From positions 1 to 41,687 of IMG/VR virus record IMGVR_UViG_3300025889_000255: a stretch of DNA of 41,687 bases; one strand, written 5' to 3'. The position numbers and the translations under genes are program-made. The notes under the pieces were generated by a model. That model made no database searches. It saw nothing but the letters and a program-made list of their open reading frames with translations, and had not been told where the DNA came from. This DNA is from a virus. Of this stretch, positions 1 to 41,687 are shown one piece after another (the first letter of the stretch is position 1; the number at the start of each line of letters is the position of its first letter).

Positions 1-126
1 CAAATATCTTCCATTATTTTAAAATTTAAACGTTTGCTAACAATAAATAAAAATGAATAGCGCAGGTTAGCGTTCTGCTTCTAATCACTTGTAGCTGTGC
101 GCTACTACATTTTATTAGGGTCGTTA
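1..126. repeat. 126-bp direct repeat, copy 1 (window left end)
   Basis: Bases 1-126 are identical to 40553-40678. The match stops at base 127 (T here, G at 40679). The block holds the first 14 bases of the small gene that is complete at 40369-40566 (its ATG is at 14-12 on the minus strand) and most of an attC-like hairpin. Because it reaches the window edge, its true length is unknown. It shows either a second copy of the element or an alternative closure of a circular genome. Confidence 0.95.
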
Positions 127-131
127 TCGGC
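32..131. repeat. attC-like hairpin, copy 1
   Basis: Read on the plus strand, GTTTGCTAAC (32-41) opens and GTTATCGGC (123-131) closes an imperfect inverted repeat. Inner arms are AATAAATAAAAATGAATAGCG and, on the other side, CGCTACTACATTTTATTAGG, with AGCGCA pairing to TGCGCT around a loop of about 30 nt. An RYYYAAC-like start, a GTTRRRY-like end, arms with bulges and a variable loop are the known architecture of integron attC sites. Assignment to that family is an inference from architecture only. Confidence 0.6.
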
Positions 132-237
132 AATTACCACCATTCGTCAAGTTGCCTTTTAAACTCTTCAATTATTTCCTCTTTAGTTACCTCTCCCTTT
201 TCTACGGCTTCCTGTATTTCTCCTTTAGTAAGTTCTT
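124..237. repeat. 114-bp direct repeat shared with the right window end, copy 1
   Basis: Bases 124-237 are identical to 41574-41687. The match starts at TTATCGG; the base before it is G at 123 and A at 41573. It covers the 3' part of the small gene at 134-316. Together with the 1-126 repeat it gives two different circle lengths, 41450 and 40552 bp. Confidence 0.95.
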
Positions 238-316
238 CATCTTCCTTTCTATCGTAGTAGAGAAAATCTCTAGCCAGATCATTTGCATTTGCAAGTATTA
301 ATTCTCTTCGTGTCAT
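134..316 (-). CDS. small acidic protein of unknown function (array unit)
   Basis: Sixty residues, highly charged, starting MTRRELILANANDLAR and ending DEWW. The C-terminal half is a run of E/K-rich helices (TKGEIQEAVEKGEVTKEEI). No family recognised. I chose the ATG at 316; a longer frame to 343 would need a TTG inside the neighbouring hairpin. The gene is enclosed by GTTATCGGC (123-131) and GCCGATAAC (333-341), a perfect 9-bp inverted repeat, so it looks like one unit of the small-gene array. Its 3' part recurs at the right window end. Confidence 0.7.
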   Translation of the reverse strand: MTRRELILANANDLARDFLYYDRKEDEELTKGEIQEAVEKGEVTKEEIIEEFKRQLDEWW

Positions 317-332
317 TTCAATAAATTTAAAA

Positions 333-400
333 GCCGATAACAAACAATAAAATCCATACGCCTATCGGCTTGACGTATTTTATTTGGGTCGTTAAAGATC
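333..400. repeat. attC-like hairpin between two small genes
   Basis: On the plus strand GCCGATAAC (333-341) and GTTAAAGATC (391-400) bracket arms CAATAAAATCCATACG (345-360) and CGTATTTTATT (374-384), which pair with a CC bulge around a 13-nt loop. The right arm plus TGGGTCGTTA closely matches the same part of the 32-131 site (ATTTTATTAGGGTCGTTA), so these are members of one repeat family. It overlaps the stop codon of the gene at 392-571, as attC sites commonly abut cassette genes. Confidence 0.6.
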
Positions 401-10643: not shown

Positions 10644-10816
10644 CGTTCTAATTTTATTGCTGTCTTATTTTTAATGTCACATAAACATACCACGCATTGA
10701 TCGCGTTTAGCAAATGTTATACCCAATAATTTAAATTTGCCCCTCTTCTTTGGGCAATCATTGCATATTTCACGCCTTTTTTCTTTTAATTCTTTGTCTG
10801 CTTGCTCGAATATCAT
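10622..10816 (-). CDS. small Cys-rich (zinc-ribbon-like) protein
   Basis: Sixty-four residues from the ATG at 10816, right after the tape-measure stop; a GTG at 10828 would add four residues. Cysteines occur as ICNDCPKK, then CVVCLC and RCPIG. Four or more Cys in CxxC pairs fit a zinc ribbon, of the type often found as tiny genes in phage tail regions. It starts the three-gene Cys-rich cluster between tape measure and protease. Confidence 0.65.
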   Translation of the reverse strand: MIFEQADKELKEKRREICNDCPKKRGKFKLLGITFAKRDQCVVCLCDIKNKTAIKLERCPIGKW

Positions 10817-10817
10817 T

Positions 10818-29990: not shown

Positions 29991-30018
29991 CTCTATTTGG
30001 TTTATGGGTTAAATAATG

Positions 30019-30048
30019 TGTCTCAGCTGGTTACTGGGACATTTTTTT
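30019..30048 (+). terminator. terminator-like hairpin on plus strand
   Basis: TGTCTCAG, a 7-nt loop, CTGGGACA and seven T residues on the plus strand, just after the minus-strand stop at 30047. No plus-strand gene precedes it. It may stop antisense transcription or be used as a structured leader of the DnaA-like gene. Confidence 0.5.
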
Positions 30049-30304
30049 ATACTCGCTTCCATCCTAGAAAAACTTCAATTTCATCTCTAGTTTGTGGGTT
30101 TAATTCCCAAGTATCTACTTGGTCGTAATTTTCGCATATAACCATTCTTAATAATTGTTTTGCTTCTTTTAATCTCTTATCCTGTTGTTTTGTATTAACC
30201 TCCTTTGCGTAGGCTTCTGCAAATTTTGTCATTGCTTTAATAACTTTTGGATGTTCTGTGTATATTAATCCAGCAGTTTCATATAAAATTTCTTCTTTTG
30301 TCAT
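30047..30304 (-). CDS. unknown protein
   Basis: An 85-residue charged protein (MTKEEILYETAGLIYTEHPK to VFLGWKRV). The second half has ENYDQVDTWELNPQTRDEI. Lies 57 bases from the DnaA-like gene. No family recognised. Confidence 0.55.
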   Translation of the reverse strand: MTKEEILYETAGLIYTEHPKVIKAMTKFAEAYAKEVNTKQQDKRLKEAKQLLRMVICENYDQVDTWELNPQTRDEIEVFLGWKRV

Positions 30305-30360
30305 TGTTTCTATTTATTTAATTTTGTTAATAATTCTACGCAACTAATCTTATCTCAAAC

Positions 30361-30371
30361 GTTAGCACACA
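30361..30371. repeat. left end of an array-type unit (GTTAGCACAC)
   Basis: GTTAGCACACA at 30361-30371. The right end of the same unit is GTGTGCTGAC at 30561-30570, its inverted copy with one mismatch. The small gene 30372-30542 lies between them. The same arrangement is found in the array at 39.7-41.6 kb, about 9 kb away. Confidence 0.6.
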
Positions 30372-30542
30372 TTAAAGGTGGTCAATCTCTATTTCGTGCC
30401 ATTTTTTACCATCAGTAGTATATTTGTTTTCTACTAAATCATAGACTATCATTTCTAAATCAGCATTAAAGTGATTTTCAGCCTCAAACCATTTAGTTAA
30501 AAATGGCGAGTAAGTTTCTTTTGTTGTTATTAAGTATCTCAT
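30372..30542 (-). CDS. small unknown protein (isolated array-type unit)
   Basis: Fifty-six residues, MRYLITTKETYSPFLTKWFE to EIEIDHL. Enclosed by GTTAGCACAC and GTGTGCTGAC. The stop codon lies 2 bases inside the left repeat, as in the other units. No family recognised; the central NADLEMIVYDLVENKY is helical by composition. Confidence 0.65.
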   Translation of the reverse strand: MRYLITTKETYSPFLTKWFEAENHFNADLEMIVYDLVENKYTTDGKKWHEIEIDHL

Positions 30543-30560
30543 ATTTTCAAATTAATTAAC

Positions 30561-30614
30561 GTGTGCTGACAAGGTGTAAAAAAACATTGAAACGTTTTTT
30601 ATTTTGGTGTTAGC
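30561..30614. repeat. attC-like hairpin
   Basis: Plus strand: GTGTGCTGACAAGGTGTAAAAA at one end and TTTTTATTTTGGTGTTAGC at the other (30561-30614), around a loop of about 10 nt (CATTGAAACG). The right end TTTTTTATTTTGGTGTTAGC follows the same pattern TTTTATTnGG(R)TSGTTAGC seen at 126, 384, 39761 and 40670. Closely follows the stop codon of the HNH gene. Confidence 0.6.
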
Positions 30615-30616
30615 AA

Positions 30617-30850
30617 TCATAGGTTTTTAAGGTGTATTTCCCTTGCTTTTTCGTTAAATTCTTTTGATTCATGGCACTTTACATGGCATTCGCGGCAAAC
30701 ACCTATTAAGTTTTCAATTACGTTTTTTCCTTTTCCTCTACCGTCAATATGATGAACGTCAATACATTTTTTGTTATCAATTTCGCATGGTATCCAATCA
30801 TCAATACCGTATCCGAAATAATCCATATAAACTTTAGTGTGCTTCTGCAT
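30617..30850 (-). CDS. HNH endonuclease
   Basis: A 77-residue protein. CIDVHHIDGRGKGKNVIENL and VCRECHVKCHE give the HNH core (HH, N, H) with Cys pairs for structural zinc. Phage HNH proteins next to RusA often support replication, packaging or recombination. Start overlaps the RusA gene end (30834). The attC-like hairpin begins right after its stop. Confidence 0.75.
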   Translation of the reverse strand: MQKHTKVYMDYFGYGIDDWIPCEIDNKKCIDVHHIDGRGKGKNVIENLIGVCRECHVKCHESKEFNEKAREIHLKNL

Positions 30851-31166
30851 AATGCTCTATATCAAATTGAATAAATTCTTCTCCCTTCTTAACTTTAACC
30901 TTTTTGATATTAATCTCAAATATGTACCGATCATCAAAATTATAACGCTTGCATAAGATATCTTGAAACGGCTTTACCGGGTTATCAATATCACTGCTTA
31001 AACTCATACCGAATACATACGATATCTTATACGGTGGTTTTGGCACTTTAGCGGTCGGTAGTGTGTATAACAATTCTTTTTCATAGGATTTGTACACTTG
31101 GGTTTTAAATCGCTTGCCCTGCCAAACTTTGTTTACGCTTAATGGCTTTATTTTGATTGTGTGCAT
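30834..31166 (-). CDS. rusA: RusA-like Holliday-junction resolvase
   Basis: A 110-residue protein. IKPLSVNKVWQGKRFKTQVY and MSLSSDIDNPVKPFQDILCK match the RusA family, including the acidic residues in DIDNPVKPF that bind metal. It resolves recombination intermediates and branched replication products, acting with the RecT-type annealing protein encoded upstream at 37454-38398. Confidence 0.8.
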   Translation of the reverse strand: MHTIKIKPLSVNKVWQGKRFKTQVYKSYEKELLYTLPTAKVPKPPYKISYVFGMSLSSDIDNPVKPFQDILCKRYNFDDRYIFEINIKKVKVKKGEEFIQFDIEHYAEAH

Positions 31167-31217
31167 GTTAAATTATTTCTGGTAAATTGCTGCTTTCTTT
31201 GTCTCGTCTGTCATGGT

Positions 31218-31499
31218 TTATGGGTTTATAAAATTACCGTCAGAGTCATAATGAGACAATACATATTGCCTTAACCTGTATGATAATTTGCATGTTTTGT
31301 TTTTTATTTGAGCGTATACATCATCTAAAGTGTATTTGCCTTTCATGTAATCTAATACTGAATTCTTTTTATCTATCATCCTTCGCTGTGATGGATAAGG
31401 CTGCGAACTCCATTCATTGTCATTATCAGGATTAACATAAAACCCTTCAAATTCCTTCATGTCAGATCCGTCTTTCGATTTTCCGTAGTATATAGGCAT
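31218..31499 (-). CDS. unknown protein
   Basis: A 93-residue protein (MPIYYGKSKDGSDMKEFEGF to DGNFINP). The segment QRRMIDKKNSVLDYMKGKYT is helical and positively charged; the rest is polar. No family recognised. Located in the replication cluster, 12 bases from the second DnaA-like gene. Confidence 0.55.
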   Translation of the reverse strand: MPIYYGKSKDGSDMKEFEGFYVNPDNDNEWSSQPYPSQRRMIDKKNSVLDYMKGKYTLDDVYAQIKNKTCKLSYRLRQYVLSHYDSDGNFINP

Positions 31500-31510
31500 A
31501 ATTCACTTAT

Positions 31511-31852
31511 TTAAACTGTTAAAAAAATAGCCTTACAAGGATTACACCTTACTTTTTCGTTTTTTGGAATCAACTTTCTTAGTATAGAAACAGCTTCAGA
31601 GTTAACAACATTATCTACCTCAATAAATCCTTTCATGGTGCTTACTGCGTTATAAAAGGTTGAATGTTTTCGATTGATTAATAACATTATTTTTTTTACA
31701 GAAGCACTTAAATAAGGTCTTAACTCCTGACAACAATAACAATACATGTTTCTTGCGTACTGTATTTCATACTTTTGAGATTCGCTTTTAATATCTTCAA
31801 TTGATATTCCGGTTTTATTACTTACTGCTTTTAATATGGTTTCTGGTCTCAT
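31511..31852 (-). CDS. second DnaA domain-IV-like DNA-binding protein
   Basis: A 113-residue protein. The first half (LKAVSNKTGISIEDIKSES, YARNMYCYCCQELRPYLSAS) and LLINRKHSTFYNAVSTMKGF correspond to the DnaA box-binding fold, with KHSTFYNA in place of the DHTTV motif. Together with 29535-29990 the phage carries two such proteins. The motif is weaker here, so the assignment is less certain. Confidence 0.6.
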   Translation of the reverse strand: MRPETILKAVSNKTGISIEDIKSESQKYEIQYARNMYCYCCQELRPYLSASVKKIMLLINRKHSTFYNAVSTMKGFIEVDNVVNSEAVSILRKLIPKNEKVRCNPCKAIFLTV

Positions 31853-31864
31853 GGGTTTGGGTTT

Positions 31865-32476
31865 TTACTCTTGGTTTTTGTTTTGTTCTTGAATCTTCTT
31901 TTTTTCAATATTTTCCTGTGTGTACGTTCCTAGATTTAATTTCATCCTTTCAACGTCTAGTTTGTTTTTAGTTGATGTGCGTTCGTTTGTGTCTACTTTT
32001 TTATAATAACTGTTAGTTACTTGCTGTATGTAGCTCCTTTCTTGATCATATTTGACAATCCATTCATGTATCATTGGCCCGTCTAATCGATTAAAAGACT
32101 TCCCGTAACGACCTGCTTTTGCATTTCTAACAAATAACGCGAAGTCCTGAACTCGATAATGAAAATAATCCTTCATCAACGTTAATGTTAAATCGACTAT
32201 CTCAGCGTCTTTTAATTTCATTTCAGGGTTTACCTTGTAATAACTATTTAAATCGCTTAGAAGTGAATAAATGTACTTCCTCGTTGATTTCTTATCCTCT
32301 CTTGCAAGTGTACTAATCTGAGGCTGATCTCTTATGAGTGCCATATTTGGATTTCCATCTTTCACGTATTTATCCAACATATCGTTGAATTCAAACCTGT
32401 CCTCTTCAATCTGGCATTGCATCAATTGCTGCGAATCCTGCTGATTTTCCGTTGTTGTTAATTTGTTGTTCTGCAT
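31865..32476 (-). CDS. unknown replication-linked protein (DUF6633-like)
   Basis: A 203-residue protein. Mostly helical, with DFALFVRNAKAGRYGKSFNR and LDGPMIHEWIVKYDQERSYI, which resembles an unnamed Bacteroidota family usually encoded beside phage and plasmid replication proteins. It overlaps the winged-helix gene by 71 bases. A helicase-loader function is possible but not shown. Confidence 0.55.
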   Translation of the reverse strand: MQNNKLTTTENQQDSQQLMQCQIEEDRFEFNDMLDKYVKDGNPNMALIRDQPQISTLAREDKKSTRKYIYSLLSDLNSYYKVNPEMKLKDAEIVDLTLTLMKDYFHYRVQDFALFVRNAKAGRYGKSFNRLDGPMIHEWIVKYDQERSYIQQVTNSYYKKVDTNERTSTKNKLDVERMKLNLGTYTQENIEKKKIQEQNKNQE

Positions 32477-33146
32477 CTGTACTTAATTTAGCGTCGTTTT
32501 TTTTCAAATCTCGAATCATCCAATTTTTGGCCGTAGCTATCCAATTAGTTTTTTTGTTGTCATTATCTGACCAGTTTTTAATGGCTTCGTAGTAGTACGC
32601 ACAATCGAAGCATTGGTATTTTTCATCTTCGTACACCTTAGAAGCAAATTTTTCATAATCAAAAAATTCAGAATCAGTAAATAAGTGAGAGAGAGTTTTT
32701 TTCTTTTTCTTTTTTTCTATTGTTGGTTTGTTGGTTTGTTCCTTGTTTGTTTGTTTATCTATACCAACCGTGCTTTGATAGTGATTCGATGGTTGCCTTG
32801 ATGCATGCTTCGATAGTGCTTTGTCAAGTGCTTCGTTGTTTTTTGGCCTACCAACTTTCAACGAAATGATATTACTTGAATACTGATTTTTACTTTTTTG
32901 TATCATTTTAATATATCCAAACCCAACTAAATCATTTAATCCTTTAGAGAAAGTATGCCAGTTTTTAACACCTATTGCATCCATTACCATTTGAGAAGGG
33001 AATCCAAATTTCTCCTTCCATCCTAATCTGTTGCAATGCTCGATAGCAAAAAATAATATTGCTGTGTGTAATGGCCTAATCTTTTCTGGATTATCGAAAC
33101 AGAAATTAAACCACTCTCTTGATAGATCGTAGCTATTCAATTTCAT
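32406..33146 (-). CDS. winged-helix replication protein
   Basis: A 246-residue protein. Residues 20-85 look like a winged helix (PLHTAILFFAIEHCNRLGWK, FPSQMVMDAIGVKNWHTFSK). A low-complexity linker (ASRQPSNHYQSTVGIDK, then a K-rich KKKKKK stretch) leads to a DnaD-like C-terminal part (YYYEAIKNWSDNDNKKTNWI, ATAKNWMIRDLKK). Phage replication initiators of this shape open the origin and recruit host helicase. It overlaps genes on both sides. Confidence 0.65.
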   Translation of the reverse strand: MKLNSYDLSREWFNFCFDNPEKIRPLHTAILFFAIEHCNRLGWKEKFGFPSQMVMDAIGVKNWHTFSKGLNDLVGFGYIKMIQKSKNQYSSNIISLKVGRPKNNEALDKALSKHASRQPSNHYQSTVGIDKQTNKEQTNKPTIEKKKKKKTLSHLFTDSEFFDYEKFASKVYEDEKYQCFDCAYYYEAIKNWSDNDNKKTNWIATAKNWMIRDLKKNDAKLSTDAEQQINNNGKSAGFAAIDAMPD

Positions 33147-33339
33147 TAATCGCTGTTTTTAGTGTCTTGGATAATTTAATCGCTGTGGCCTTATCTAAGC
33201 ATATGAATTGACTGTTATAATCATTGTCTTGCCCCGTATCTTCTATGTCGATAAATATCAGATTACCAGTGTTCGCAAAACAACGAAGCTGAATTTGATC
33301 ATTTTCGTAATCACAGAATAGTAGTTTAACATTTGCCAT
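33133..33339 (-). CDS. unknown protein
   Basis: Sixty-eight residues from ATG 33339 (MANVKLLFCDYENDQIQLR to KTAINEIE). I reject the longer TTG start at 33402 because it lies inside the terminator hairpin 33363-33408. Beta-rich start, helical end with DKATAIKLSKTLK. No family recognised. Confidence 0.6.
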   Translation of the reverse strand: MANVKLLFCDYENDQIQLRCFANTGNLIFIDIEDTGQDNDYNSQFICLDKATAIKLSKTLKTAINEIE

Positions 33340-33362
33340 AAGAATTTTATTTAAAAATCCAT

Positions 33363-33408
33363 AAAAAAAGCCCTTTGAATCTCGACTGCATTCGAAACCC
33401 AAAAGGCT
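33363..33408 (-). terminator. intrinsic terminator / attenuator
   Basis: Minus strand: AGCCTTTTGGGTTTCGA pairs with TCGAGATTCAAAGGGCT (a few G-U pairs) around ATGCAG, then seven T residues. It ends upstream transcription about 24 bases before the ATG at 33339, so that gene is either read through by chance or controlled by attenuation. Confidence 0.75.
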
Positions 33409-33428
33409 TGTAAAAATTTATTTATATA

Positions 33429-33444
33429 GTTAGATGCAGCTAAC
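33429..33444. promoter_or_regulatory. 16-bp near-palindrome GTTAGATGCAGCTAAC
   Basis: The sequence is symmetric except for one A/G pair (GTTAG n TGCA n CTAAC). It may be an operator for a phage regulator, or another member of the GTTAG/CTAAC family of short inverted repeats. It lies between the 33469-33484 element and the terminator. Confidence 0.45.
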
Positions 33445-33468
33445 ATAAAAATTTCAAAAGAACTTGAG

Positions 33469-33484
33469 TATAAATATAATACTT
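33469..33484 (-). promoter_or_regulatory. 16-bp shared element, copy 1
   Basis: TATAAATATAATACTT on the plus strand, identical to 36788-36803. Both copies are followed by a 100- to 130-base leader with GTTAG-type repeats. Copy 2 is part of a promoter with a correctly spaced TTG; copy 1 has no such TTG. Confidence 0.55.
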
Positions 33485-33489
33485 TTTGT

Positions 33490-33843
33490 TTAGTTATTTG
33501 AGGTTAATTTATCAGGATTTTCAAAAATATTTCCAATAATTTCTAATCCCGCTTCACTGAAGTTTGATTGAGAGTTGTCAAGGTTATTTATCGAATGATA
33601 TTGCCATTCATTATCCCATCCAACAACATCAATGGTTTCATCTTCAAATATTACTATATCTTTGTCGCAAACCTCTTTACCATTAATATCTCTCAATCCT
33701 ATGTATTGCATCCATATTAACCCCGGATCAAACATCAATATCCCACTCATTAAATCTTCAATGTCAAAGTTATCAACAATCATTTTCTCACCATTCCAAG
33801 CCCTGAATTTTAATTCCCTCCAAACTTCTTTATTTGTTTTCAT
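33490..33843 (-). CDS. YopX family protein
   Basis: A 117-residue protein. WRELKFRAWNGEKMIVDNF, IWMQYIGLRDINGKEVCDKD, and LEIIGNIFENPDK follow the signature order of YopX proteins, common in phages, function unknown (a beta-barrel fold). The motif end EIIGNIFENPD is nearly invariant in this family. Confidence 0.8.
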   Translation of the reverse strand: MKTNKEVWRELKFRAWNGEKMIVDNFDIEDLMSGILMFDPGLIWMQYIGLRDINGKEVCDKDIVIFEDETIDVVGWDNEWQYHSINNLDNSQSNFSEAGLEIIGNIFENPDKLTSNN

Positions 33844-33873
33844 TTATCTGTTTTTTTTATTTGGTTAAAAGGG

Positions 33874-34104
33874 TTAAAAATTATACTTCTTAGTAAACTC
33901 ATCAATACCAAGATATTCATCTATTCTATCATAGAACTTCGTGCCTAAATCATCTTTATTATTCCATAGCCAATTTGAAAAAGTATCTAAAGGCTCATTG
34001 TTTACATCCTTTTCAGCCATCTCTAATTCATAATCGTCTTTCATACTTTCGAATATTTGCTTTATTTGATATTCAAAAGTGTCATTAATTGTTGTAATAT
34101 CCAT
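33874..34104 (-). CDS. unknown acidic protein
   Basis: A 76-residue acidic protein (MDITTINDTFEYQIKQIFES to KYNF). Helical by composition, no motif recognised. Lies 31 bases from the YopX gene. Confidence 0.55.
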   Translation of the reverse strand: MDITTINDTFEYQIKQIFESMKDDYELEMAEKDVNNEPLDTFSNWLWNNKDDLGTKFYDRIDEYLGIDEFTKKYNF

Positions 34105-34152
34105 TTTTCAATTGTTTTATAGTTTATAATGTCCGTTATTACTTGTTGTTAA

Positions 34153-34458
34153 TCAATTGGTTGTGTTTTTGTTGGCAACCTCATGTCCGTTACCATGTCC
34201 GTTAAGCTTATCTCTAACTAATTCTAATCTTCCTAAATAATGCTTAAAACTTTCCTTTCCATTGCTGGCCCTTACTATTGTTAAGTGATTCTTTACGAAC
34301 TTTTCAATATCAGTAACCGTGGAACATGCATCTAATTTTATATTTTCAGGCCATTGTTTCACAGTCTTAAAGAAGGTTTCTAACTCGGTCAAATCCCACT
34401 TTTCTAATTCAGGTTTATAATTTCCTGTAGGTATTGTTATCCAATCTTCGTCTATCAT
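34153..34458 (-). CDS. DUF6965-like protein
   Basis: A 101-residue protein. LEKWDLTELETFFKTVKQWP, VTDIEKFVKNHLTIVRASNG and YLGRLELVRDKLNGHGNGHE match an unnamed small family widespread in Bacteroidota and their phages. The start overlaps the end of the helicase-methyltransferase gene, so the two are co-translated. Confidence 0.6.
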   Translation of the reverse strand: MIDEDWITIPTGNYKPELEKWDLTELETFFKTVKQWPENIKLDACSTVTDIEKFVKNHLTIVRASNGKESFKHYLGRLELVRDKLNGHGNGHEVANKNTTN

Positions 34459-36671
34459 AATAATTGTAATTGTGCTTTTGTTTCAATAGCAGATTTATGA
34501 TTCTTAACATTAATATTGTAATAGCTCTCTTTTAGCTCAATAGATATGCTTTTACGATTCATTTTTAAAGCCTGCCAACCTTCAGATCCAATGCCGCCAA
34601 ACGGACTTAAAACAGTTTCACCTTCATTTGAATATAGATGTAATATCCTTTCAATGGTATCTAACTGTAAAGGGCAAATATGCTTCTCATCGTTCGAGTC
34701 CCTTGCGGTTGTGTATTGTAAAGTTCGGCCATAATTGATATCCATCCAAACAGGAGAAGCGTATTTTTGCCATAGATCAACTGGTAAATAATCCGGCTTA
34801 GAAGAATCTGTATCCTGATGTGTAATAGGCGTTTCATTTTCTCCAGCATTTCTGAAAAACAAAATGTAATCCGGAATACCTACCCTTGACATTACAGAAT
34901 CCTTTTTAATTTGTTTATGTAGTAACCCTAATGTCTTAGTTCGCTGCATTTCTGTTACTGGGTTTTTCCATAATGTAGTTCTGGCATGGTAAATAAACCC
35001 TTCTTTTGTAAACATTTGCTCAATCATTCCGCTAAAATCTCTCAATCCAATGAATCCTTCTTTGCCTTTTTGAATAGGTAGATCCATACAATGAACGGCA
35101 CATATTCTACCGGGTTTTAAAGTTCTTTTCAATTGAGGAATCAAGTAGCTAAAATGTTCTTTAAATTGATTGTAATTAGACACATTACCCATATCTTCGG
35201 CCTTATCAGAGTAAACATACAACTCAGCAAATGGAGGGCTAAAAACAACTATGTCGGCACAATTATCTTCTAGTTTAGATGCTTCTTGTACACAATCTCC
35301 ATTGATACAATGATAATTATCGGTTTTGATTTCTTTGCTCATTACTTTTGCGGTTTTATTTGATGTATAATCGGCTTGACTTGAATATTTAGCCATTTCC
35401 TTAATCATTAATTTGTGTTTTGACTCTTTTAATAGGATGGTCTTTCTAACGTTGCCTTGGCTCTCAGGTATTAAAATATGTACCTTAACGTTATTCATTT
35501 GCCCGAAACGATAACAACGCCTTACAGCCTGATAAAACGCCTCAAATTTAAAGTCATAAGAACAGAAAACCATGTTAAAACAATTCTGATAATTCATTCC
35601 AAAACTTGCAATACTTGTCTTTGTTATCAACGTCCTGAATTCATTGTTAGCAAACCCTAGCAATTTATCAGCTTTATATTCTGGTTTGTCGCTACCCTGT
35701 ACATTAAATCCATCACTAATACGCTTCCTTAGCTCGTCTGTTTCAGCATTTTGCAAACCCCAAACTATCCATTGGTCATCATTGGAGTTAACTAATTCAA
35801 CGGTTTTATCAATTCGCTTATCAAATGATCGTCGCAAATCTTTATTTATATCCGTGGCACTTACTGCTACGTCACCAAATAAAGTACCGGATATGTTTTC
35901 AACTGGTATAATGTGTTCTATAAATTCAATACCTGGTAACTCGTAACCATCCATAGAAAAACCCAATGTTTCAGGATTATCTAAAGAAATTGACCACGTA
36001 CATACATATTTCCAAAAGTTATCCTTTGCATGTTTCCTTAGCCTCCATTTAGACGTTTCGCCCCCATCATGGACAAAGAACATGGATAACATTTCTAAGT
36101 ATGTCATAGCTCCTAAAAATTGGCTATGTTGGCCTAATTCCATATGATCGTTTGGGGAAGGTGTGGCGGTACATGCTAATCGATAAGGAGTATATTTAAA
36201 AGAGTCAATAATAAGACTCGATAACTTCCCGTCACGACCTTTTAAAATACTTGATTCATCTAACACAATACCAGAAAACACACTAACATCAATGTTTTTA
36301 AGTTGCTCGTAATTGATAATAAATATCCCGTCTAATGAATTTATAGGGTTTTCAATATTCGTATTAAGTTTTTCAATCTCAATACCAAACTTTTTAGCCT
36401 CCTGTATTGTCTGACCAACAACCGCCAATGGAGCTAATATTAAAACAGGCTTACCAGTGTGTTTAACAACCTCTTCGGACCACGACAACTGCATTAATGT
36501 TTTGCCTAATCCACAATCTGCAAAGATAGCAAACCGTCCTTTTTTCAATGATACTTTAACAATGTACTTTTGGAAGTCAAAGAGGTAATTATTCAAATCA
36601 GATTCATTAACATCGAATCCACTTTCAATATGTGTCTTTGTTTTGTTTTCTAAAAATTTATCATAATCCAT
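34455..36671 (-). CDS. SNF2-type helicase fused to DNA methyltransferase
   Basis: A 738-residue protein. N-terminal helicase part: FADCGLGKTLMQLSWSEE (Walker A), LILAPLAVVGQTIQEA, IVLDESSILKG (motif II), CTATPSPNDHMELGQ (motif III) and YQAVRRCYRFGQ (motif VI). C-terminal methyltransferase part: GDCVQEASKLEDN, then VFSPPFAELYV (SPPF for DPPY) and FGGIGSEGWQALKM (SAM site), which is the order of beta-class N4/N6 enzymes. It may modify phage DNA or remodel it during replication. Promoter at 36790-36820. Confidence 0.8.
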   Translation of the reverse strand: MDYDKFLENKTKTHIESGFDVNESDLNNYLFDFQKYIVKVSLKKGRFAIFADCGLGKTLMQLSWSEEVVKHTGKPVLILAPLAVVGQTIQEAKKFGIEIEKLNTNIENPINSLDGIFIINYEQLKNIDVSVFSGIVLDESSILKGRDGKLSSLIIDSFKYTPYRLACTATPSPNDHMELGQHSQFLGAMTYLEMLSMFFVHDGGETSKWRLRKHAKDNFWKYVCTWSISLDNPETLGFSMDGYELPGIEFIEHIIPVENISGTLFGDVAVSATDINKDLRRSFDKRIDKTVELVNSNDDQWIVWGLQNAETDELRKRISDGFNVQGSDKPEYKADKLLGFANNEFRTLITKTSIASFGMNYQNCFNMVFCSYDFKFEAFYQAVRRCYRFGQMNNVKVHILIPESQGNVRKTILLKESKHKLMIKEMAKYSSQADYTSNKTAKVMSKEIKTDNYHCINGDCVQEASKLEDNCADIVVFSPPFAELYVYSDKAEDMGNVSNYNQFKEHFSYLIPQLKRTLKPGRICAVHCMDLPIQKGKEGFIGLRDFSGMIEQMFTKEGFIYHARTTLWKNPVTEMQRTKTLGLLHKQIKKDSVMSRVGIPDYILFFRNAGENETPITHQDTDSSKPDYLPVDLWQKYASPVWMDINYGRTLQYTTARDSNDEKHICPLQLDTIERILHLYSNEGETVLSPFGGIGSEGWQALKMNRKSISIELKESYYNINVKNHKSAIETKAQLQLL

Positions 36672-36708
36672 ACGCCTAAATTAAAAAAGCCCTTACCTCA
36701 TGTCTATT

Positions 36709-36765
36709 GGCGTACGGACACAAGCTAAGAGCTTAGTATTTATTGATTTGATGTGTACGCCTAAC
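36709..36765. repeat. GGCGTAC/GTACGCC inverted repeat with CTAAC end
   Basis: Plus strand: GGCGTACGGACACA (36709-36722) pairs with TGTGTACGCC (36752-36761) with a GG bulge; TAAC follows (36762-36765), giving GCCTAAC, the standard R'' box of attC sites. The loop holds AAGCT-aag-AGCTT. No small gene lies inside, so it may be an empty unit or an RNA leader hairpin. Confidence 0.5.
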
Positions 36766-36787
36766 ATCTTAATATCTAAAGAACTGT

Positions 36788-36803
36788 TATAAATATAATA
36801 CTT
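36788..36803 (-). promoter_or_regulatory. 16-bp shared element, copy 2
   Basis: Identical to 33469-33484. Contains the promoter -7 box TATATTTA (36797-36790). Confidence 0.6.
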
Positions 36804-36820
36804 AATTATTAATAATTCAA
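36790..36820 (-). promoter_or_regulatory. Bacteroidota-type promoter for the helicase-methyltransferase gene
   Basis: Minus strand TTG (36820-36818), 20 bases, TATATTTA (36797-36790). Fits TTG/TAnnTTT(G) spacing. It would give a leader of about 115 bases with the 36709-36765 hairpin. Confidence 0.55.
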
Positions 36821-37024
36821 TGGTTGCTGTGGGTTTTCAATGTAATATTTAGCAATCTTCTTTTTACCGTCTTCAATTATTAATGTTTTTATAGGATGTT
36901 CATTTTCACGTAAATTTTTAATACGCGCTGAAAGCCTTCGAACATTATATAATTCTCTGGCTTGTGGGTCGGTAATCGACTTACCTTGCAATAGGTGTTT
37001 TAAAATTGTTTGGTTCTGGCTCAT
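36809..37024 (-). CDS. winged HTH protein (HTH_39-like)
   Basis: A 71-residue protein. LLQGKSITDPQARELYNVRR and LSARIKNLRENEHPIKT match the small phage helix-turn-helix family in which SLT-x-x-A-x-x-LYG is followed by RLAARIxDLR. It probably regulates phage genes. Next gene downstream is the helicase-methyltransferase, after the promoter region. Confidence 0.65.
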   Translation of the reverse strand: MSQNQTILKHLLQGKSITDPQARELYNVRRLSARIKNLRENEHPIKTLIIEDGKKKIAKYYIENPQQPLNY

Positions 37025-37058
37025 AGTTTTGCTTTAATAGTGTTTCTAATTATCTTGG

Positions 37059-37457
37059 TTAAGGTTCTAGTCTAGCTTTAATTTGATTGATCAATAATTC
37101 CATTCTGGTTGAATAAAAATCCTTCCACAATTCCTTTACTATCTCAGGTTTTTCATGTCCTTTCAATTCAGTTTGTTGAAATAAAACATACAAGGTATTT
37201 CTTAAACGTTGTGACTTGGTTTTTGTGTTATCGTAAAGATCGACCTCAGATTTATCTATTTCCTCCATTTCCTCGTCGCTCATGGTTTCTTTGTCGTATT
37301 TGAATACTAGTATACCAAAACCATTTTGAGCTTCTAAGATTGAAAGTTTTTGTTGTGTGGTTAATTCTTGAGTTCCGAATCTTAAAGAGAATGTATTATC
37401 CTTTTTAGAGTTTACACCTTCAAGGCCACCAACTAATACTATTTTTTTATCACTCAT
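37059..37457 (-). CDS. unknown protein paired with RecT
   Basis: A 132-residue protein (MSDKKIVLVGGLEGVNSKKD to NQIKARLEP). Beta-rich first half (TFSLRFGTQELTTQQKLSIL) and helical second half. It overlaps recT by 4 bases and is transcribed just after it; in related phages such a gene often accompanies RecT. Function unknown. Confidence 0.6.
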   Translation of the reverse strand: MSDKKIVLVGGLEGVNSKKDNTFSLRFGTQELTTQQKLSILEAQNGFGILVFKYDKETMSDEEMEEIDKSEVDLYDNTKTKSQRLRNTLYVLFQQTELKGHEKPEIVKELWKDFYSTRMELLINQIKARLEP

Positions 37458-38398
37458 AATCCTTGCTTATCTAATTTTTTTTGAATATCAGTTTGACTGT
37501 AATTATTACCGGAGTCAATCGGGTCGGGTTGGTTCTGTTTAAGCATTTCAATTATTTCGCTTGCTTCGTTTTGCTTCAATTCACCTGATGTAATTTCCAT
37601 TTCAATCCCTGCTTTCTGCTCGTCTGATATAATAGACGTTCTCAAAAGGCTGTTGATAAACGAAACTGTTGGTGAATCTATATCCAACATGTAATCATCG
37701 TTATCTAATTCAATGGCTTTGTTTAATTTTTCCCATTTTTCAGATTTAGGTAAGTATTTTGTGTGACGTCTTATAATCGCTTTACGGCACATTTCAACTT
37801 CATCCTTTATCCAAACACAAGTAGACATTTTCTTTGCTTCATACGTCTTCCAAGCTTCAGATTTAGCCCTTACAGTATCGTATATGTCCTGAATTCCTGC
37901 ACTTTCTGAATGGATAGTTCCGTCCGGAAGAGTAGCGAGCGAATAAACTGCAATTATTTTACCTTTCTCTTTTCCGTTTAGCCAATAAGGAACATGTTCT
38001 TTAACCTTTTCTTTAGATGCCATGTCAAATTTAATACGGTCACCTTCGTAAACAACCTGGCATTCAATACTGTTAACGCTTCCGGTATCTGTAATTAATT
38101 TCGCCAATCCTTGATACGATGCTCTGAACTGACACTCATACTTCTTTGTTTTGTTGTTCCAAGACGGTATAAGATAACCAAATGGATTTGTAGGGTTTAG
38201 GGTTAAACCTGTTTGAGCTACGTTTAAAACGGCTCCTTTGATCGAAATAGGATCGCACTTTTGTAATTGTGGGCTATTGTTGATTAACTGAACAGCAAAA
38301 GAACACTCTCGCATGAAAGTCTTTTCGTCTGTTAGTTGTATGAAATCAGACTTTATTAGGCTAAATTCCTCTTTTGCTTCTTTGATTATATTACTCAT
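37454..38398 (-). CDS. recT: RecT-family single-strand annealing protein
   Basis: A 314-residue protein. VLNVAQTGLTLNPTNPFGYL, CQFRASYQGLAKLITDTGSV, CQVVYEGDRIKFDM and VWIKDEVEMCRKAIIRRHTK are the core blocks of RecT. It anneals complementary single strands during phage recombination and replication. No RecE-type exonuclease is recognised nearby. RusA, encoded 6 kb downstream, would process the products. Confidence 0.85.
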   Translation of the reverse strand: MSNIIKEAKEEFSLIKSDFIQLTDEKTFMRECSFAVQLINNSPQLQKCDPISIKGAVLNVAQTGLTLNPTNPFGYLIPSWNNKTKKYECQFRASYQGLAKLITDTGSVNSIECQVVYEGDRIKFDMASKEKVKEHVPYWLNGKEKGKIIAVYSLATLPDGTIHSESAGIQDIYDTVRAKSEAWKTYEAKKMSTCVWIKDEVEMCRKAIIRRHTKYLPKSEKWEKLNKAIELDNDDYMLDIDSPTVSFINSLLRTSIISDEQKAGIEMEITSGELKQNEASEIIEMLKQNQPDPIDSGNNYSQTDIQKKLDKQGL

Positions 38399-38400
38399 TT

Positions 38401-38592
38401 CTATTTATCGTTTAAAGTTTCCTCTAATACCTCAATTCTTGCTTGTCTCACAATATGGCCTAAGTGCTTTTTAAGTACTTCTACACCGTTTTTATCTACC
38501 CCATGAACATCTCTCATTATTATTAATAAATGCTCTGTGCGTTCTTTGGATGTTCTTGGCTTTGATACTGGTTGTTCTTTACTTCCTTTCAT
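38401..38592 (-). CDS. unknown small basic protein
   Basis: Sixty-three residues (MKGSKEQPVSKPRTSKERTE to LEETLNDK), basic N-terminus and a helical centre (VEVLKKHLGHIVRQARIEVL). Transcribed from the 38615-38642 promoter element, three bases before recT. No family recognised. Confidence 0.6.
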   Translation of the reverse strand: MKGSKEQPVSKPRTSKERTEHLLIIMRDVHGVDKNGVEVLKKHLGHIVRQARIEVLEETLNDK

Positions 38593-38614
38593 TTTGGTTA
38601 TGGGTTTAATTAAT

Positions 38615-38642
38615 TATACTGTAAATGTAACATAAAGGTTTC
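38615..38642 (-). promoter_or_regulatory. 28-bp shared promoter element, copy 2
   Basis: Matches 593-620 at 25 of 28 positions. The -7-like box is TACATTTA; 20 bases upstream reads TTAG, weaker than the copy at 600-631. It would drive the recT operon. Confidence 0.55.
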
Positions 38643-38649
38643 ATCTATC

Positions 38650-38973
38650 CTAATTATTTGATAGAATAATTTGTAATCCTTCCATATTTTCTAATAAATC
38701 ACCTTCTAATTCTTGGTGCATTTCTAACAGATAAGAAAAAGGATGTCTTTCGGTGTTTATTGTATAGCTAACATACTCAGCTAATATGTCATTATTTTTT
38801 AACAACTCTTTTATGTTAGTAAAATGAACAATCATATTCACCTCTTTTTTCAACCAATTTAAATAGTTTATAGAGTTAATTGCTGTCTTACACCAAGCCC
38901 CATTATACATGAAGTCTATAATGATTGAATTTGCTGTGTGTTTAGTGCTTTGTATTATAATTTCTTTAGTCAT
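38650..38973 (-). CDS. unknown protein
   Basis: A 107-residue protein (MTKEIIIQSTKHTANSIIID to QIILSNN). Beta-alpha mix with INYLNWLKKEVNMIVHFTNI. Start overlaps the next upstream gene by 8 bases. No family recognised. Confidence 0.55.
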   Translation of the reverse strand: MTKEIIIQSTKHTANSIIIDFMYNGAWCKTAINSINYLNWLKKEVNMIVHFTNIKELLKNNDILAEYVSYTINTERHPFSYLLEMHQELEGDLLENMEGLQIILSNN

Positions 38974-39253
38974 TGTTCAGTTTTTTAATCGTTTCAATAA
39001 TGTATTCATGTCCGGGCTTTACCTCTGTTCCTTCGCATACTATACCACCGGGTTTAAATTTAGGAGCTTTAGGGGTATTGGCTTTTAGAAGTATCTCTGT
39101 TATTAACATCATTCTTTTAGCCATTTCGACCCATAGCTTTGAGGCTTTGGCTCTTCTTAAATTAGTCTCACTCTCATTTAACCTGATAGCATTTAACTTG
39201 TGTACTCGTTGATACCAATTTTCTGCCGTATCGTCAAATTCTTTCCTAGTCAT
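38966..39253 (-). CDS. unknown protein
   Basis: A 95-residue basic protein. Helical first half (MTRKEFDDTAENWYQRVHKL, LRRAKASKLWVEMAKRMMLI) and a beta-rich end (KFKPGGIVCEGTEVKPGHEY). Overlaps both neighbours by 8 bases. No family recognised. Confidence 0.55.
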   Translation of the reverse strand: MTRKEFDDTAENWYQRVHKLNAIRLNESETNLRRAKASKLWVEMAKRMMLITEILLKANTPKAPKFKPGGIVCEGTEVKPGHEYIIETIKKLNND

Positions 39254-39704
39254 TTTTGTCTTGATTTAAGATGTATTTAGCTATTAATAATTTTAATCCG
39301 TCCCTGTTTTCAAAACCCATTTCCAAAACACGCTCTCTAGCGTTTTTCATGATATAATCTATGTCGTGCATATCAAATATGCATTGATCAAGTTCGATTT
39401 TAAACTTCATTAGCTTAGTATATTCAATGTAAACGTCTTTACCATCGCTACGACCCACAATAACACCTTTAACGTCAAATTCTAAACCGTCTATATTACG
39501 GCATACTACCAATTCATTATGGACGTTATCGATGATTTCTTCAATTTTACTCTGTATCTTACTAGAGCTTAAACCGTTTCTAAACCTGCTTAACATTACC
39601 CTGCAAGAGCCGTGACTTTTGGATCGACCATCCTTCATTAACACCTCGTATAAATAAGGCATTTCGTTACGTTTAAAATCATTTAGTTTTTCTTTGTAGT
39701 TCAT
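39246..39704 (-). CDS. unknown protein, first gene of the recT region
   Basis: A 152-residue protein (MNYKEKLNDFKRNEMPYLYE to YILNQDKND). SHGSCRVMLSRFRNGLSSS and IIVG-like segments but no family recognised. Lies just after the small-gene array; the 68-bp gap before it contains an attC-like hairpin (39705-39772). Confidence 0.55.
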   Translation of the reverse strand: MNYKEKLNDFKRNEMPYLYEVLMKDGRSKSHGSCRVMLSRFRNGLSSSKIQSKIEEIIDNVHNELVVCRNIDGLEFDVKGVIVGRSDGKDVYIEYTKLMKFKIELDQCIFDMHDIDYIMKNARERVLEMGFENRDGLKLLIAKYILNQDKND

Positions 39705-39717
39705 ATTTAATTTTTAA

Positions 39718-39772
39718 TAAAGTGCATGTATAATTAATTGGAAGTGTATTTTATTCGGATGTTAGCCACAAT
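39718..39772. repeat. partial attC-like hairpin at array edge
   Basis: Plus strand: AATAAAGTGCA (39717-39727) pairs with TGTATTTTATT (39746-39756), followed by CGGATGTTAGCCACAAT. The right end fits the family pattern TTTTATTnGG.TSGTTAGC. There is no clear TAAC box on the left, so the left end may have decayed. Confidence 0.5.
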
Positions 39773-40141
39773 TTAATTTTTGACTATTTCGCATTCCATA
39801 AGTCCGTCATCATGGGTAAGTCTTTCTGTTAAAAATTCCCCAATGCTATCCCATATATCATCAGTCCAACCCTCTTTCAAAATGGTTCTAAACTCGTAGA
39901 AAGTATCAAAATCTTCATCCTGTATAAAGAAGCATCCAGAGTTTGCAAGTAATTTATGCTTACCATTTACATCTAAGCTAAAGTAATTTTCCTTAAAGTA
40001 TGGGTCACCAAAGTAAGCTACAAAAAAACCATTTTGAACCCTCGCTATTTTCCATTCAAAGTCATTTTCATCTTGGTAAGAATGGCATTCCAAGTATTGT
40101 CCCGCATTGGGGAATTTTTCTATTTCAGTTGAGTATATCAT
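39773..40141 (-). CDS. unknown acidic protein (array unit 1)
   Basis: A 122-residue protein (MIYSTEIEKFPNAGQYLECH to ECEIVKN), beta-rich with WKIARVQNGFFVAYFGDPYF and an acidic second half (GWTDDIWDSIGEFL). Largest gene of the array. Flanked by GTTAGCC (39761) and GCTAAC (40173), only 6 bases in common. No family recognised. Confidence 0.65.
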   Translation of the reverse strand: MIYSTEIEKFPNAGQYLECHSYQDENDFEWKIARVQNGFFVAYFGDPYFKENYFSLDVNGKHKLLANSGCFFIQDEDFDTFYEFRTILKEGWTDDIWDSIGEFLTERLTHDDGLMECEIVKN

Positions 40142-40160
40142 AAGTCAAAAATTAAACAGT

Positions 40161-40322
40161 TCACTTCGTTTTGCTAACACCGTATAAAGCAAATAATTTT
40201 ACTATGTCCTGCTCTTTAATTGGCTTTCGTAGTTTATACTTCATTATTAATTCAGTTGTTTGGTGGTCACTAATGTCATACCACCAATTCATTGCTTCGT
40301 CTATTTTCTGTTCTTTATTCAT
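40161..40322 (-). CDS. small unknown protein inside a large hairpin loop
   Basis: Fifty-three residues, MNKEQKIDEAMNWWYDISDH to ALYGVSKTK. It lies between GCTAACACCGTATAAAGCAA (40173-40192) and TTGCCTTATACCATACGTTAGC (40352-40373), which form an imperfect inverted repeat around it. The last 15 codons run through the first arm (TTATACGGTGTTAGC), so the repeat is partly coding. ATG 40322 is preferred over the upstream start at 40391. Confidence 0.65.
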   Translation of the reverse strand: MNKEQKIDEAMNWWYDISDHQTTELIMKYKLRKPIKEQDIVKLFALYGVSKTK

Positions 40323-40373
40323 AATTTTATTATTTAAGTCCGTAAAATTTCTTGCCTTATACCATACGTTAGC
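40173..40373. repeat. long inverted repeat enclosing a small gene
   Basis: Arms as above. In plus-strand orientation the order is ...CTAAC - gene - GTTAG..., the same as in an attC site, but with a loop of about 160 bp that contains a gene. It may be an attC-like site that has captured a gene, or two separate sites. Confidence 0.55.
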
Positions 40374-40593
40374 AAACATCATCCTTCTCATAAAAATATT
40401 GCTTTGATGCTATTCCGTTTTCGTCTATACAACTTAATTCATATTTAAGTTTATACCCTTTTATGTTCTCTTTTTTTGTGGTTAAACGAACTCTATCGTC
40501 ACCACATATTTTTATTTCACTTTCTTTAAAGTCAAACCTTTCTCCTTTGTTCCAAATATCTTCCATTATTTTAAAATTTAAACGTTTGCTAAC
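40368..40593. repeat. array unit with perfect 10-bp ends (GTTAGCAAAC / GTTTGCTAAC)
   Basis: GTTAGCAAAC at 40368-40377 and GTTTGCTAAC at 40584-40593 are exact inverted copies and enclose the gene 40369-40566. The 10-base ends differ from those of every neighbouring unit. In integron cassettes the 5' TTRRRY and the 3' RYYYAAC of the same cassette pair in this way. Confidence 0.75.
40369..40566 (-). CDS. small unknown protein (array unit 2)
   Basis: Sixty-five residues, MEDIWNKGERFDFKESEIKI to YFYEKDDVC. Beta-rich (RVRLTTKKENIKGYKLKYEL). The stop codon TAA is part of GTTTGCTAAC. Its first 14 bases recur at the left window end, confirming two copies of the upstream flank. No family recognised. 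Confidence 0.65.
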   Translation of the reverse strand: MEDIWNKGERFDFKESEIKICGDDRVRLTTKKENIKGYKLKYELSCIDENGIASKQYFYEKDDVC

Positions 40594-40678
40594 AATAAAT
40601 AAAAATGAATAGCGCAGGTTAGCGTTCTGCTTCTAATCACTTGTAGCTGTGCGCTACTACATTTTATTAGGGTCGTTA
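40553..40678. repeat. 126-bp direct repeat, copy 2
   Basis: Identical to bases 1-126. Here it continues as GTTAGCATTAATAAAA into the gene 40682-40876, whereas at the left end it continues as GTTATCGGC into the gene 134-316. Confidence 0.95.
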
Positions 40679-40684
40679 GCATTA
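40584..40684. repeat. attC-like hairpin, copy 2
   Basis: Same hairpin as at 32-131, closed here by GTTAGCATTA (40675-40684). GCTAACAATAAATAAAAATG pairs imperfectly with the CATTTTATTAGGGTCGTTAGC arm (given in part). The loop contains GGTTAGCGTTCTGC. Confidence 0.6.
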
Positions 40685-40904
40685 ATAAAAATGCCGTTCA
40701 AACCATATCTGCAAATCAAATCCAAATACACATATTTTATAACAATAGTCCGTAGGGCTTGCATACCATTGGTGTATACCTAATATCACCCAATCTCCAT
40801 TTCTAGAGTAGCTTTTTAGCTTCCATCTATTCATTAATGAAAGCCTTTTAAATTTTGTCTTATAATCTCTTTTCATCGTTTCGTCATTTTAAAATAATGC
40901 TAAC
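40675..40904. repeat. array unit with perfect 10-bp ends (GTTAGCATTA / TAATGCTAAC)
   Basis: GTTAGCATTA at 40675-40684 and TAATGCTAAC at 40895-40904 are exact inverted copies around the gene 40682-40876. The left border is the divergence point between the two circle closures. Confidence 0.75.
40682..40876 (-). CDS. small basic protein (array unit 3)
   Basis: Sixty-four residues, MKRDYKTKFKRLSLMNRWKL to IWFERHFY. Aromatic and basic (WVILGIHQWYASPTDYCYK). It starts 9 bases after the upstream gene's stop. Missing from the alternative closure. No family recognised. Confidence 0.6.
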   Translation of the reverse strand: MKRDYKTKFKRLSLMNRWKLKSYSRNGDWVILGIHQWYASPTDYCYKICVFGFDLQIWFERHFY

Positions 40905-41195
40905 ACAACCTAAAAAGCCATAGAAAAAACGGCTTTTAGCTTTGCTCATTAGCGGTAATTTAGGTTTATAGGTTATAATTCCTTCCCTTTCAGATTCAAT
41001 TTCATACCCTTCAATTCTAGGTGCATTTTCTTTAGTTAGTGGTTTATCATTACTTGATATTATTTCTGTCTCTCCGTCAAATCCCACGTAAAAACGATTG
41101 CTAATATCAAATAAAATCAATAACTCCTTTTTCATTTTAGGGTAGTTACCATCTTTTTCGTACTGCTCTAGCAATTCTTTTGCTTTATTTTTCAT
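40884..41195 (-). CDS. unknown protein (array unit 4)
   Basis: A 103-residue protein from ATG 41195 (MKNKAKELLEQYEKDGNYPK to GCVSIILK); the longer frame to 41279 would run back into the neighbouring gene. Helical start and beta-rich middle (FYVGFDGETEIISSNDKPLT). Its last codons contain GTGTTAGC, so the array repeat is partly coding. Lies between TAATGCTAAC (40904) and GTTATAGGGC (41221), i.e. in a loop-type position. Confidence 0.6.
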   Translation of the reverse strand: MKNKAKELLEQYEKDGNYPKMKKELLILFDISNRFYVGFDGETEIISSNDKPLTKENAPRIEGYEIESEREGIITYKPKLPLMSKAKSRFFYGFLGCVSIILK

Positions 41196-41220
41196 ATCCG
41201 TTACTGTTTTTATTAATAGC

Positions 41221-41457
41221 GTTATAGGGCATTTAAAGCCCCTCAATCTCATTATATCCATCTTCTTCAAAATCCTCAATATCTATTTTTATAATATCTC
41301 CTTTTGTTTCATACAAATATTCATGTAATTTGGTTGAATCAATTTGAAAGGTTTTAGTGCCGTCTTGTAGTCTTAAAAACTTACCTAAATCAAAATACTC
41401 TTTCTTTGTTTTATTTACTAATGTGTGGTGTACTCCCATAATAAAACGCCCTATAAC
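41221..41457. repeat. array unit with perfect 10-bp ends (GTTATAGGGC / GCCCTATAAC)
   Basis: GTTATAGGGC at 41221-41230 and GCCCTATAAC at 41448-41457 enclose the gene 41233-41439 as an exact inverted pair. Confidence 0.75.
41233..41439 (-). CDS. small acidic protein (array unit 5)
   Basis: Sixty-eight residues, MGVHHTLVNKTKKEYFDLGK to GYNEIEGL. The start lies 9 bases inside the right repeat; the stop codon lies 3 bases inside the left one. Contains FQIDSTKLHEYLYETKGDII and an acidic tail. No family recognised. Absent from the alternative closure. Confidence 0.65.
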   Translation of the reverse strand: MGVHHTLVNKTKKEYFDLGKFLRLQDGTKTFQIDSTKLHEYLYETKGDIIKIDIEDFEEDGYNEIEGL

Positions 41458-41487
41458 AAAATGTATAGCAAATAGCCGTTATTGGGC
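41448..41487. repeat. short attC-like hairpin (GCCCTATAAC ... GTTATTGGGC)
   Basis: A 40-bp element: 10-base arms with one mismatch around a 20-base loop AAAATGTATAGCAAATAGCC. Minimal form of the repeat family at the spacer before the last unit. Confidence 0.6.
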
Positions 41488-41573
41488 TGTAATTAAACTA
41501 TTTGCGTGTTTATAATTTTAATTTCTTATCTCAATGGTTCGTTCGTTAAATCGGCTACTATTCTTATACAACA
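41488..41573. other. 86-bp spacer before the last array unit
   Basis: No frame. Includes GCAAATAG-type inverted pieces (TTTGCGTG 41501, and CTATTTGC on the other strand nearby at 41466) and ATCGGCTACTATTCTTATAC before ACATTATCGGC. It may be a decayed hairpin. Confidence 0.4.
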
Positions 41574-41687
41574 TTATCGGCAATTACCACCATTCGTCAA
41601 GTTGCCTTTTAAACTCTTCAATTATTTCCTCTTTAGTTACCTCTCCCTTTTCTACGGCTTCCTGTATTTCTCCTTTAGTAAGTTCTT
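41574..41687. repeat. 114-bp direct repeat, copy 2 (window right end)
   Basis: Identical to 124-237. Preceded by ACA rather than GTCG, so the flank differs from copy 1. It runs to the window edge. Confidence 0.95.
41584..41687 (-). CDS. 3' part of the small acidic gene, second copy
   Basis: The last 34 codons of the gene complete at 134-316; the 5' end lies beyond the window. Identical in sequence. In a circular genome it is the same gene seen once, apart from the different flank. Confidence 0.8.
   Translation of the reverse strand, partial: ELTKGEIQEAVEKGEVTKEEIIEEFKRQLDEWW

Follow-up and report, generated by a model that had tools for sequence, protein, structure and literature searches.

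A probable integron-type cassette array without integrase in a phage most likely infecting Flavobacteriales

Introduction

What are the tiny genes that lie between inverted repeats in the phage genome studied here, and could they be integron-type cassettes in a genome without an integrase? The DNA is a single virus record (IMGVR_UViG_3300025889_000255), and its whole length of 41,687 nucleotides is referred to below as the window. In integrons, recombination crosses over at G|TT. The original prediction, which was made from the sequence alone, described an attC-like array without an integrase, and our analysis agrees with it on three grounds: the absence of PF00589 from the record, matches to a flavobacterial attC model (R2, see below) and one junction at G|TT. 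The accompanying claim that no phage array of this kind had been described cannot be upheld, since clusters of integron-type cassettes without integrase (CALINs) have been published for phages, among them one of flavobacteria (Qi et al. 2023, PMC9892861).

Results

The two ends of the contig overlap: positions 1-126 are identical to 40553-40678 and positions 124-237 to 41574-41687, and therefore the genome is circular or permuted. The array extends from 39761 to 41687 and continues onto 1-397 across the joined contig ends (Table 1). The unit predicted at 123-341 is present, but the overlap of the ends had been overlooked. It follows from this overlap that the unit is the one found from 41574 onward, read from a version of the array that lacks 898 nt.

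Table 1. Parts of the array in order across the joined contig ends, and the segment that differs between versions
Feature	Unit ends	Position	Strand	Remarks
Unit 0	GTTAGCCACA ... TTTTGCTAAC	39761..40178	-	ORF 39773-40141 (122 aa, unknown); ends only 6-nt complementary
attC-like site A, long form		40172..40374	+	AAC end 40178, GTT start 40368
Unit 1	GTTAGCAAAC ... GTTTGCTAAC	40368..40593	-	ORF 40369-40566 (65 aa); 10-nt exact complementarity
attC-like site h1		40587..40681	+	R2 25.7 bits, E 0.0013
Unit 2	GTTAGCATTA ... TAATGCTAAC	40675..40904	-	ORF 40682-40876 (64 aa); 10-nt exact complementarity
attC-like site h2		40898..40978	+	AAC end 40904, GTT start 40972; no R2 match
Segment with most of an ORF (ATG near 41190, stop near 40884)		40972..41220	-	From sequence; right-hand attC boundary unresolved
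Unit 3	GTTATAGGGC ... GCCCTATAAC	41221..41457	-	ORF 41233-41439 (68 aa); 10-nt exact complementarity
attC-like site h3		41451..41579	+	R2 29.1 bits, E 0.00023; R' is ATT, not GTT
Second copy of h1 (= 40553-40678), joined to TTATCGGC (short version)		1..126	+	R2 24.1 bits at 35-129
Unit 4	GTTATCGGC ... GCCGATAAC	123..341	-	ORF 134-343 (69 aa); 9-nt complementarity
attC-like site h4, last of the array		335..397	+	R2 only 10.4 bits, E 2.7
898-nt segment, present or absent between versions		40676..41573	.	Breakpoints both at (G/A)|TTA of attC-like sites

The units follow a common grammar, in which a GTTxxxxxxx start is complementary to the unit's own xxxxxxxAAC end and the extension varies between cassettes. 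The four pairs of ends that had been predicted, those of units 1 to 4, are all present. Three GTTA units with complementarity of at least 9 nt were observed in the long array, against a mean of 0.058 and a maximum of 2 in 500 dinucleotide shuffles. The same signature is found in the intI-carrying integrons of phage records, Vibrio MK672802 and Shewanella MZ568829. Several R' boxes deviate from GTTRRRY, and a complementary partner for GTTATAATT, in the segment at 40972..41220, was sought without success.

The folding of the sites agrees with the prediction in part. Of the hairpins proposed between units, 40584-40684 folds better than shuffles, but 332-402 and 41448-41582, judged by energy alone, show no such advantage, and the third one, which had been placed at 41448-41487, belongs to a site that in fact extends to 41579. 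The list of sites was also incomplete, the long site at 40178-40368 and the short site at 40904-40972 having been missed. The long site and 40584-40684 are the only two whose folds are more stable than those of shuffles (z -1.9 to -3.0). Site A has an arm duplex of -12.7 and fold z values of -2.4 (+) and -3.0 (-), its arms are similar to those of a Flavobacteriales site (L210 742-923), and its loop holds a small ORF (ATG near 40321, stop 40161). ORF 40884-41279 reaches into site h2 with its 3' end. A comparison of the window with Rfam gave no match. No convincing match of the cassette proteins was found in Pfam or PHROGs, and the sole match in tblastn against phage records was that of unit 4 to an Elizabethkingia phage (41.7%). 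Relatives of the neighbouring protein 39246-39704 were sought and none was found, and megablast of window positions 30001-41687 against phage records also gave no match.

To which class do the sites belong? In the real sites of the integron controls the attC top strand reads TAACAA ... CGTTA, and the window carries this pattern on the + strand, as in h4 (TAACAAACAATAAAAT ... TTTTATTTGGGTCGTTA) compared with Vibrio (TAACAAACAATTTAAG ... CTTAATTGGGCGTTA). In a blind genome-wide search for the pattern TAACA ... GTTA with pairing arms, h1, h2 and h4 lead the + strand, h1 being the best, h2 the second separate site (-8.7) and h4 listed fourth. When clusters of this pattern were sought over 1.84 Mb of loci, the scan returned the integron controls, the window, several related phages and one unexplained cluster, L105; the same scan of shuffles gave no clusters. 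L105 is an unrelated viral contig with three sites of attC grammar on + at 10548-11855. The gene strand was also considered as the attC top strand, and this was dropped, as the site sequence and the junction both place the top strand on +.

Two covariance models were compared. R1 is our own model, built from proteobacterial attC sites and two sites of Tetrasphaera phage TJE1. It was not significant on the window (h1 11.8 bits, E 0.68) and missed the related phages as well, and the sites of sedentary chromosomal integrons score poorly across models. The training sites of R2 came from Flavobacteriales chromosomes and from phages, among them Polaribacter phage P12002L; no site of the window was included. 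Its best matches on the window, all on + and all in the array, are three copies of two sites (h3, and h1 twice; Table 1), and the next match reaches 13.1 bits. The E-values of R2 are rough because its calibration was short; the held-out bacterial sites (L200, L201, L202 and L211) scored 25-78 bits. Since the proteobacterial model is not significant, the window sites belong to an attC class other than the one on which standard models are based.

We also observed two versions of the array. In the short version h1 is joined to unit 4 as GGGTCG|TTATCGGC, and the long version reads GGGTCG|TTAGCATTA ... ACAACA|TTATCGGC. The base preceding TTA differs between the versions (G vs A), as does the following base, and so the crossover lies within TTA or directly 5' of it, in accordance with G|TT. 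The h1 hairpin is entire in the short version, which is expected where + is the attC top strand. The short junction, flanked on either side by uninterrupted unique sequence, is present in the window and in L114, a contig from IMG/VR 3300006802_000788 (sample 3300006802) that is 99.9% identical and begins at window position 4. Both versions are known from metagenome assembly and not from reads or isolates. Together, the assembly overlap and L114 document a single event in which cassettes were gained or lost by a crossover that separates G from TT in R'; whether this was a loss or a gain cannot be told.

The direction of the cassette genes sets the phage arrays apart. The orientation of phage units was assigned from the site sequence and the longest ORF was scored. 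It ran opposite to the attC top strand in 18/18 phage units, so that an ORF along attC, a usual though not strictly defining trait of cassettes, was found in 0/18, compared with 77/80 bacterial units (24/24 and 53/56) and 12/12 control units (Proteobacteria and two of Tetrasphaera phage TJE1). The separation is also complete when arrays are counted instead of units (17 vs 8, Fisher p about 1e-6). The annotated cassette genes of phage P12002L are likewise opposite to their sites.

At E<=1, no match to PF00589 (tyrosine recombinase) was detected in the phage record. As a result, a complete integron, which requires intI and attI in one element, is not present; what the locus does have is a cluster of at least two attC sites (R'' AAC ... 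GTT R', paired arms) and no integrase. A search of viral contigs with the arm pattern gave 36 stretches, of which only L114, the same phage, was an array, and in bacterial genomes none of 35 matches lay in an attC-like context; the latter search did provide Bacteroidota genomes from which to start. Alternative arrays were sought in viral contigs with a 28-nt flank pattern near 39614, and none came to light. Related phages were reached through the helicase-methyltransferase fusion at window 34455-36671: similar arrays or single sites are present in L010, L011, L018, L030, L041 and L062, and the proteins encoded in cassettes of related phages include a C5 DNA methylase. No tyrosine recombinase was found in L010, L011, L018, L041 and L062, some of these records being fragments. 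By terminase, the nearest isolate phages are mostly Flavobacterium phages (44% identity), and a host among Flavobacteriales is most likely, though only inferred.

Some further observations were made on these phages. Viral contigs encode at least 80 relatives of the helicase-methyltransferase, several of them with arrays or sites no more than a few kb away. L011 contains, at 636-1400, two near-identical long attC-like bodies with different R'' ends, each with an extra GC-rich palindrome (ATGGTTTCAATGCG/CGCATTGAAACCAT). In the window itself, two large proteins beside the tape measure protein (10818-13610), at 13610-15949 and 15949-17544, have almost no family matches.

Sites matching R2 are common in bacteria of the Flavobacteriaceae group, where they were found in 53/60 sampled genomes (at most 45 per genome), and were absent from the 12 genomes tested outside Bacteroidota (0/12). 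The Bacteroidota tyrosine recombinase is mostly 350-390 aa long and matches TIGR02249 below the cut-off. The IntI patch is absent in 16/16 aligned bacterial recombinases and present in both IntI controls, and in a tree the placement of these proteins between IntI and Xer remained unresolved (support 54/26). Sites with unit complementarity of at least 9 nt occur inside the fetched flank of 10/16 recombinase loci; the upper bound for an adjacent site by chance is ~0.10 per locus, and shuffles of these loci gave no sites. L205 (Allomuricauda) has the classical layout, a recombinase followed by an array pointing away from it. Chromosomal integron-like arrays of Flavobacteriaceae and relatives were seen in L205 (8904-18006), L208-L214 and L222-L229, many of them beside a patchless recombinase. 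Published surveys reported few integrons in Bacteroidetes (PMC9024848). We found no description of a flavobacterial attC/recombinase system in the literature searched, which did not extend to preprints and subscription papers, and standard integron finders probably miss these bacterial loci.

Discussion

The anatomy of the array, the attC class of its sites and their orientation on + are shown by the data, and so is the coexistence of versions with an 898-nt difference at G|TT. We are very confident that the array is a CALIN and have good confidence that it recombines at G|TT. That the host provides the enzyme in trans is an inference without experimental support, which we mildly favour. As a whole, the reading of the locus as an integrase-less CALIN in a Flavobacteriales phage, with its cassettes mobilised in trans by a recombinase of the host, seems probable to us. 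The array is probably active, recombination by an integron-type integrase being inferred. Against this reading count the lack of significance with R1, the weakness of h2 and h4 or their absence from the R2 matches, the ATT of h3 and the other deviating R' boxes, the origin of both versions in metagenome assemblies, and the fact that the phage host and the role of the patchless recombinase are only inferred.

Could the array be a fossil, its cassettes old and fixed and its versions the product of deletion at TTA microhomology or of annealing by the phage RecT? The phage does have RecT and no integrase, some sites are degraded (h3 with its ATT, the weak h2 and h4) and the junction shares 3 nt. 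However, each breakpoint coincides with the base at which integrons cross over, in two sites that were recognised independently, and lies on the expected strand, and exact complementarity of 9-10 nt persists in four units, where drift would erode it; we consider a fossil unlikely without dismissing it. The doubt could also concern the junctions themselves, the short and long forms being an assembly artefact and not two real versions, as both contigs end at one graph branch and repeats of ~126 nt are near the assembly word size. We give this little credence, since the short junction occurs in the contigs of two records with continuous unique flanks and the graph branch requires both junctions among the reads.

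Two other readings leave integrons aside. Hairpins located between co-directional small genes of a phage might be terminators or processing sites, with a regulatory role for the complementary ends. This is very improbable, because the ends match inside each unit but differ from unit to unit, a pattern that regulation would not require, because the sites match an attC model and have no match in Rfam, and because the rearrangement cuts at the sites. It is scarcely credible that the genes belong to another kind of mobile element bounded by inverted repeats, transposon-like or inverton-like. Inverted repeats do flank each gene, but their boundaries are GTT/AAC with variable extension, neither a target duplication nor a transposase was seen, the sites match the attC model, and the junction keeps one whole hairpin, as a deletion by attC x attC recombination predicts.

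How would a CALIN of this kind work? Each cassette consists of a tiny gene and a single attC-class site, one strand of which would fold as a hairpin on which a tyrosine recombinase could exchange strands at G|TT. Such exchange would excise, insert and reorder cassettes while the ends of each cassette stay complementary. The enzyme may come from the host, and the likeliest candidate would be the recombinase without IntI patch that adjoins arrays of the same class in Flavobacteriaceae and relatives; that it carries out attC recombination is inferred, and no experiment links the two. As the cassette genes are opposite to attC, their coding strand is the strand that recombines, the attC bottom strand. 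In known integrons, placing the attC bottom strand on the lagging-strand template raises excision (PMC5371416). Perhaps replication and transcription of the phage are co-directional; this is untested, and it would make the bottom strand the lagging-strand template and increase excision. Replication-linked excision as an explanation of the reversed genes remains a hypothesis, and the direction of phage replication is not known.

Integrase-less phage arrays as a kind are already known. In the lytic-phage CALINs described by Qi et al. (PMC9892861), as in the window, attC-type sites lie between phage genes in phages without integrase, and sites of such phages, one of them flavobacterial, recombine with IntI1 in E. 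coli. The sites of P12002L are similar to those of the window (TAACACCGTATA...ACGTTACC) and its cassette genes too are opposite to the sites, whereas mixed directions were reported for this phage, for which only two sites were named. That study also leaves P12002L unconnected with any attC class of flavobacteria, with a recombinase of the host or with a junction at population level. In our own inspection of P12002L (L159, 30011-38933), there are several attC-class sites on + and all cassette genes are on -; a Mom-like protein and a DNA methyltransferase lie between sites.

The sedentary chromosomal integrons of Vibrio and Shewanella share with the window the R''/R' logic, complementarity within cassettes, the G|TT crossover and a top strand of TAACAA...CGTTA, but they have their own intI with the IntI patch, and their ORFs run along attC. 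The chromosomal arrays of the Flavobacteriaceae group (L205, L208-L214, L222-L229) have the attC class and the arms of the window and differ from it in their larger genes, in ORFs along attC and often in a nearby patchless tyrosine recombinase. Near-identical cryoconite phages exchange small gene modules, and an integron gene cassette is among the categories of their variable islands, although attC anatomy was not described there (PMC7468147). What looks new is the flavobacterial attC class with its recombinase partner and the reversed direction of genes in phages.

We can take the argument one step further only tentatively. It is possible, though we would not call it probable, that Flavobacteriaceae and relatives have a widespread, largely unrecognised integron system with a patchless recombinase, which phages parasitise by means of a separate, mirror-image cassette pool. 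As part of the same tentative proposal, the mirror-image arrangement may allow the genes to be transcribed with the phage operon and leave the recombining strand most exposed at replication.

If our reading is true, phages use the integron machinery of their hosts and shuffle small accessory genes inside one population. Bacteroidota, the findings suggest, have an abundant integron-like system, and current tools would probably pass over it, as they depend on the IntI patch and on attC models from Proteobacteria. The consistent reversal of the phage genes provides a testable rule on how replication, transcription and single-strand recombination are arranged.
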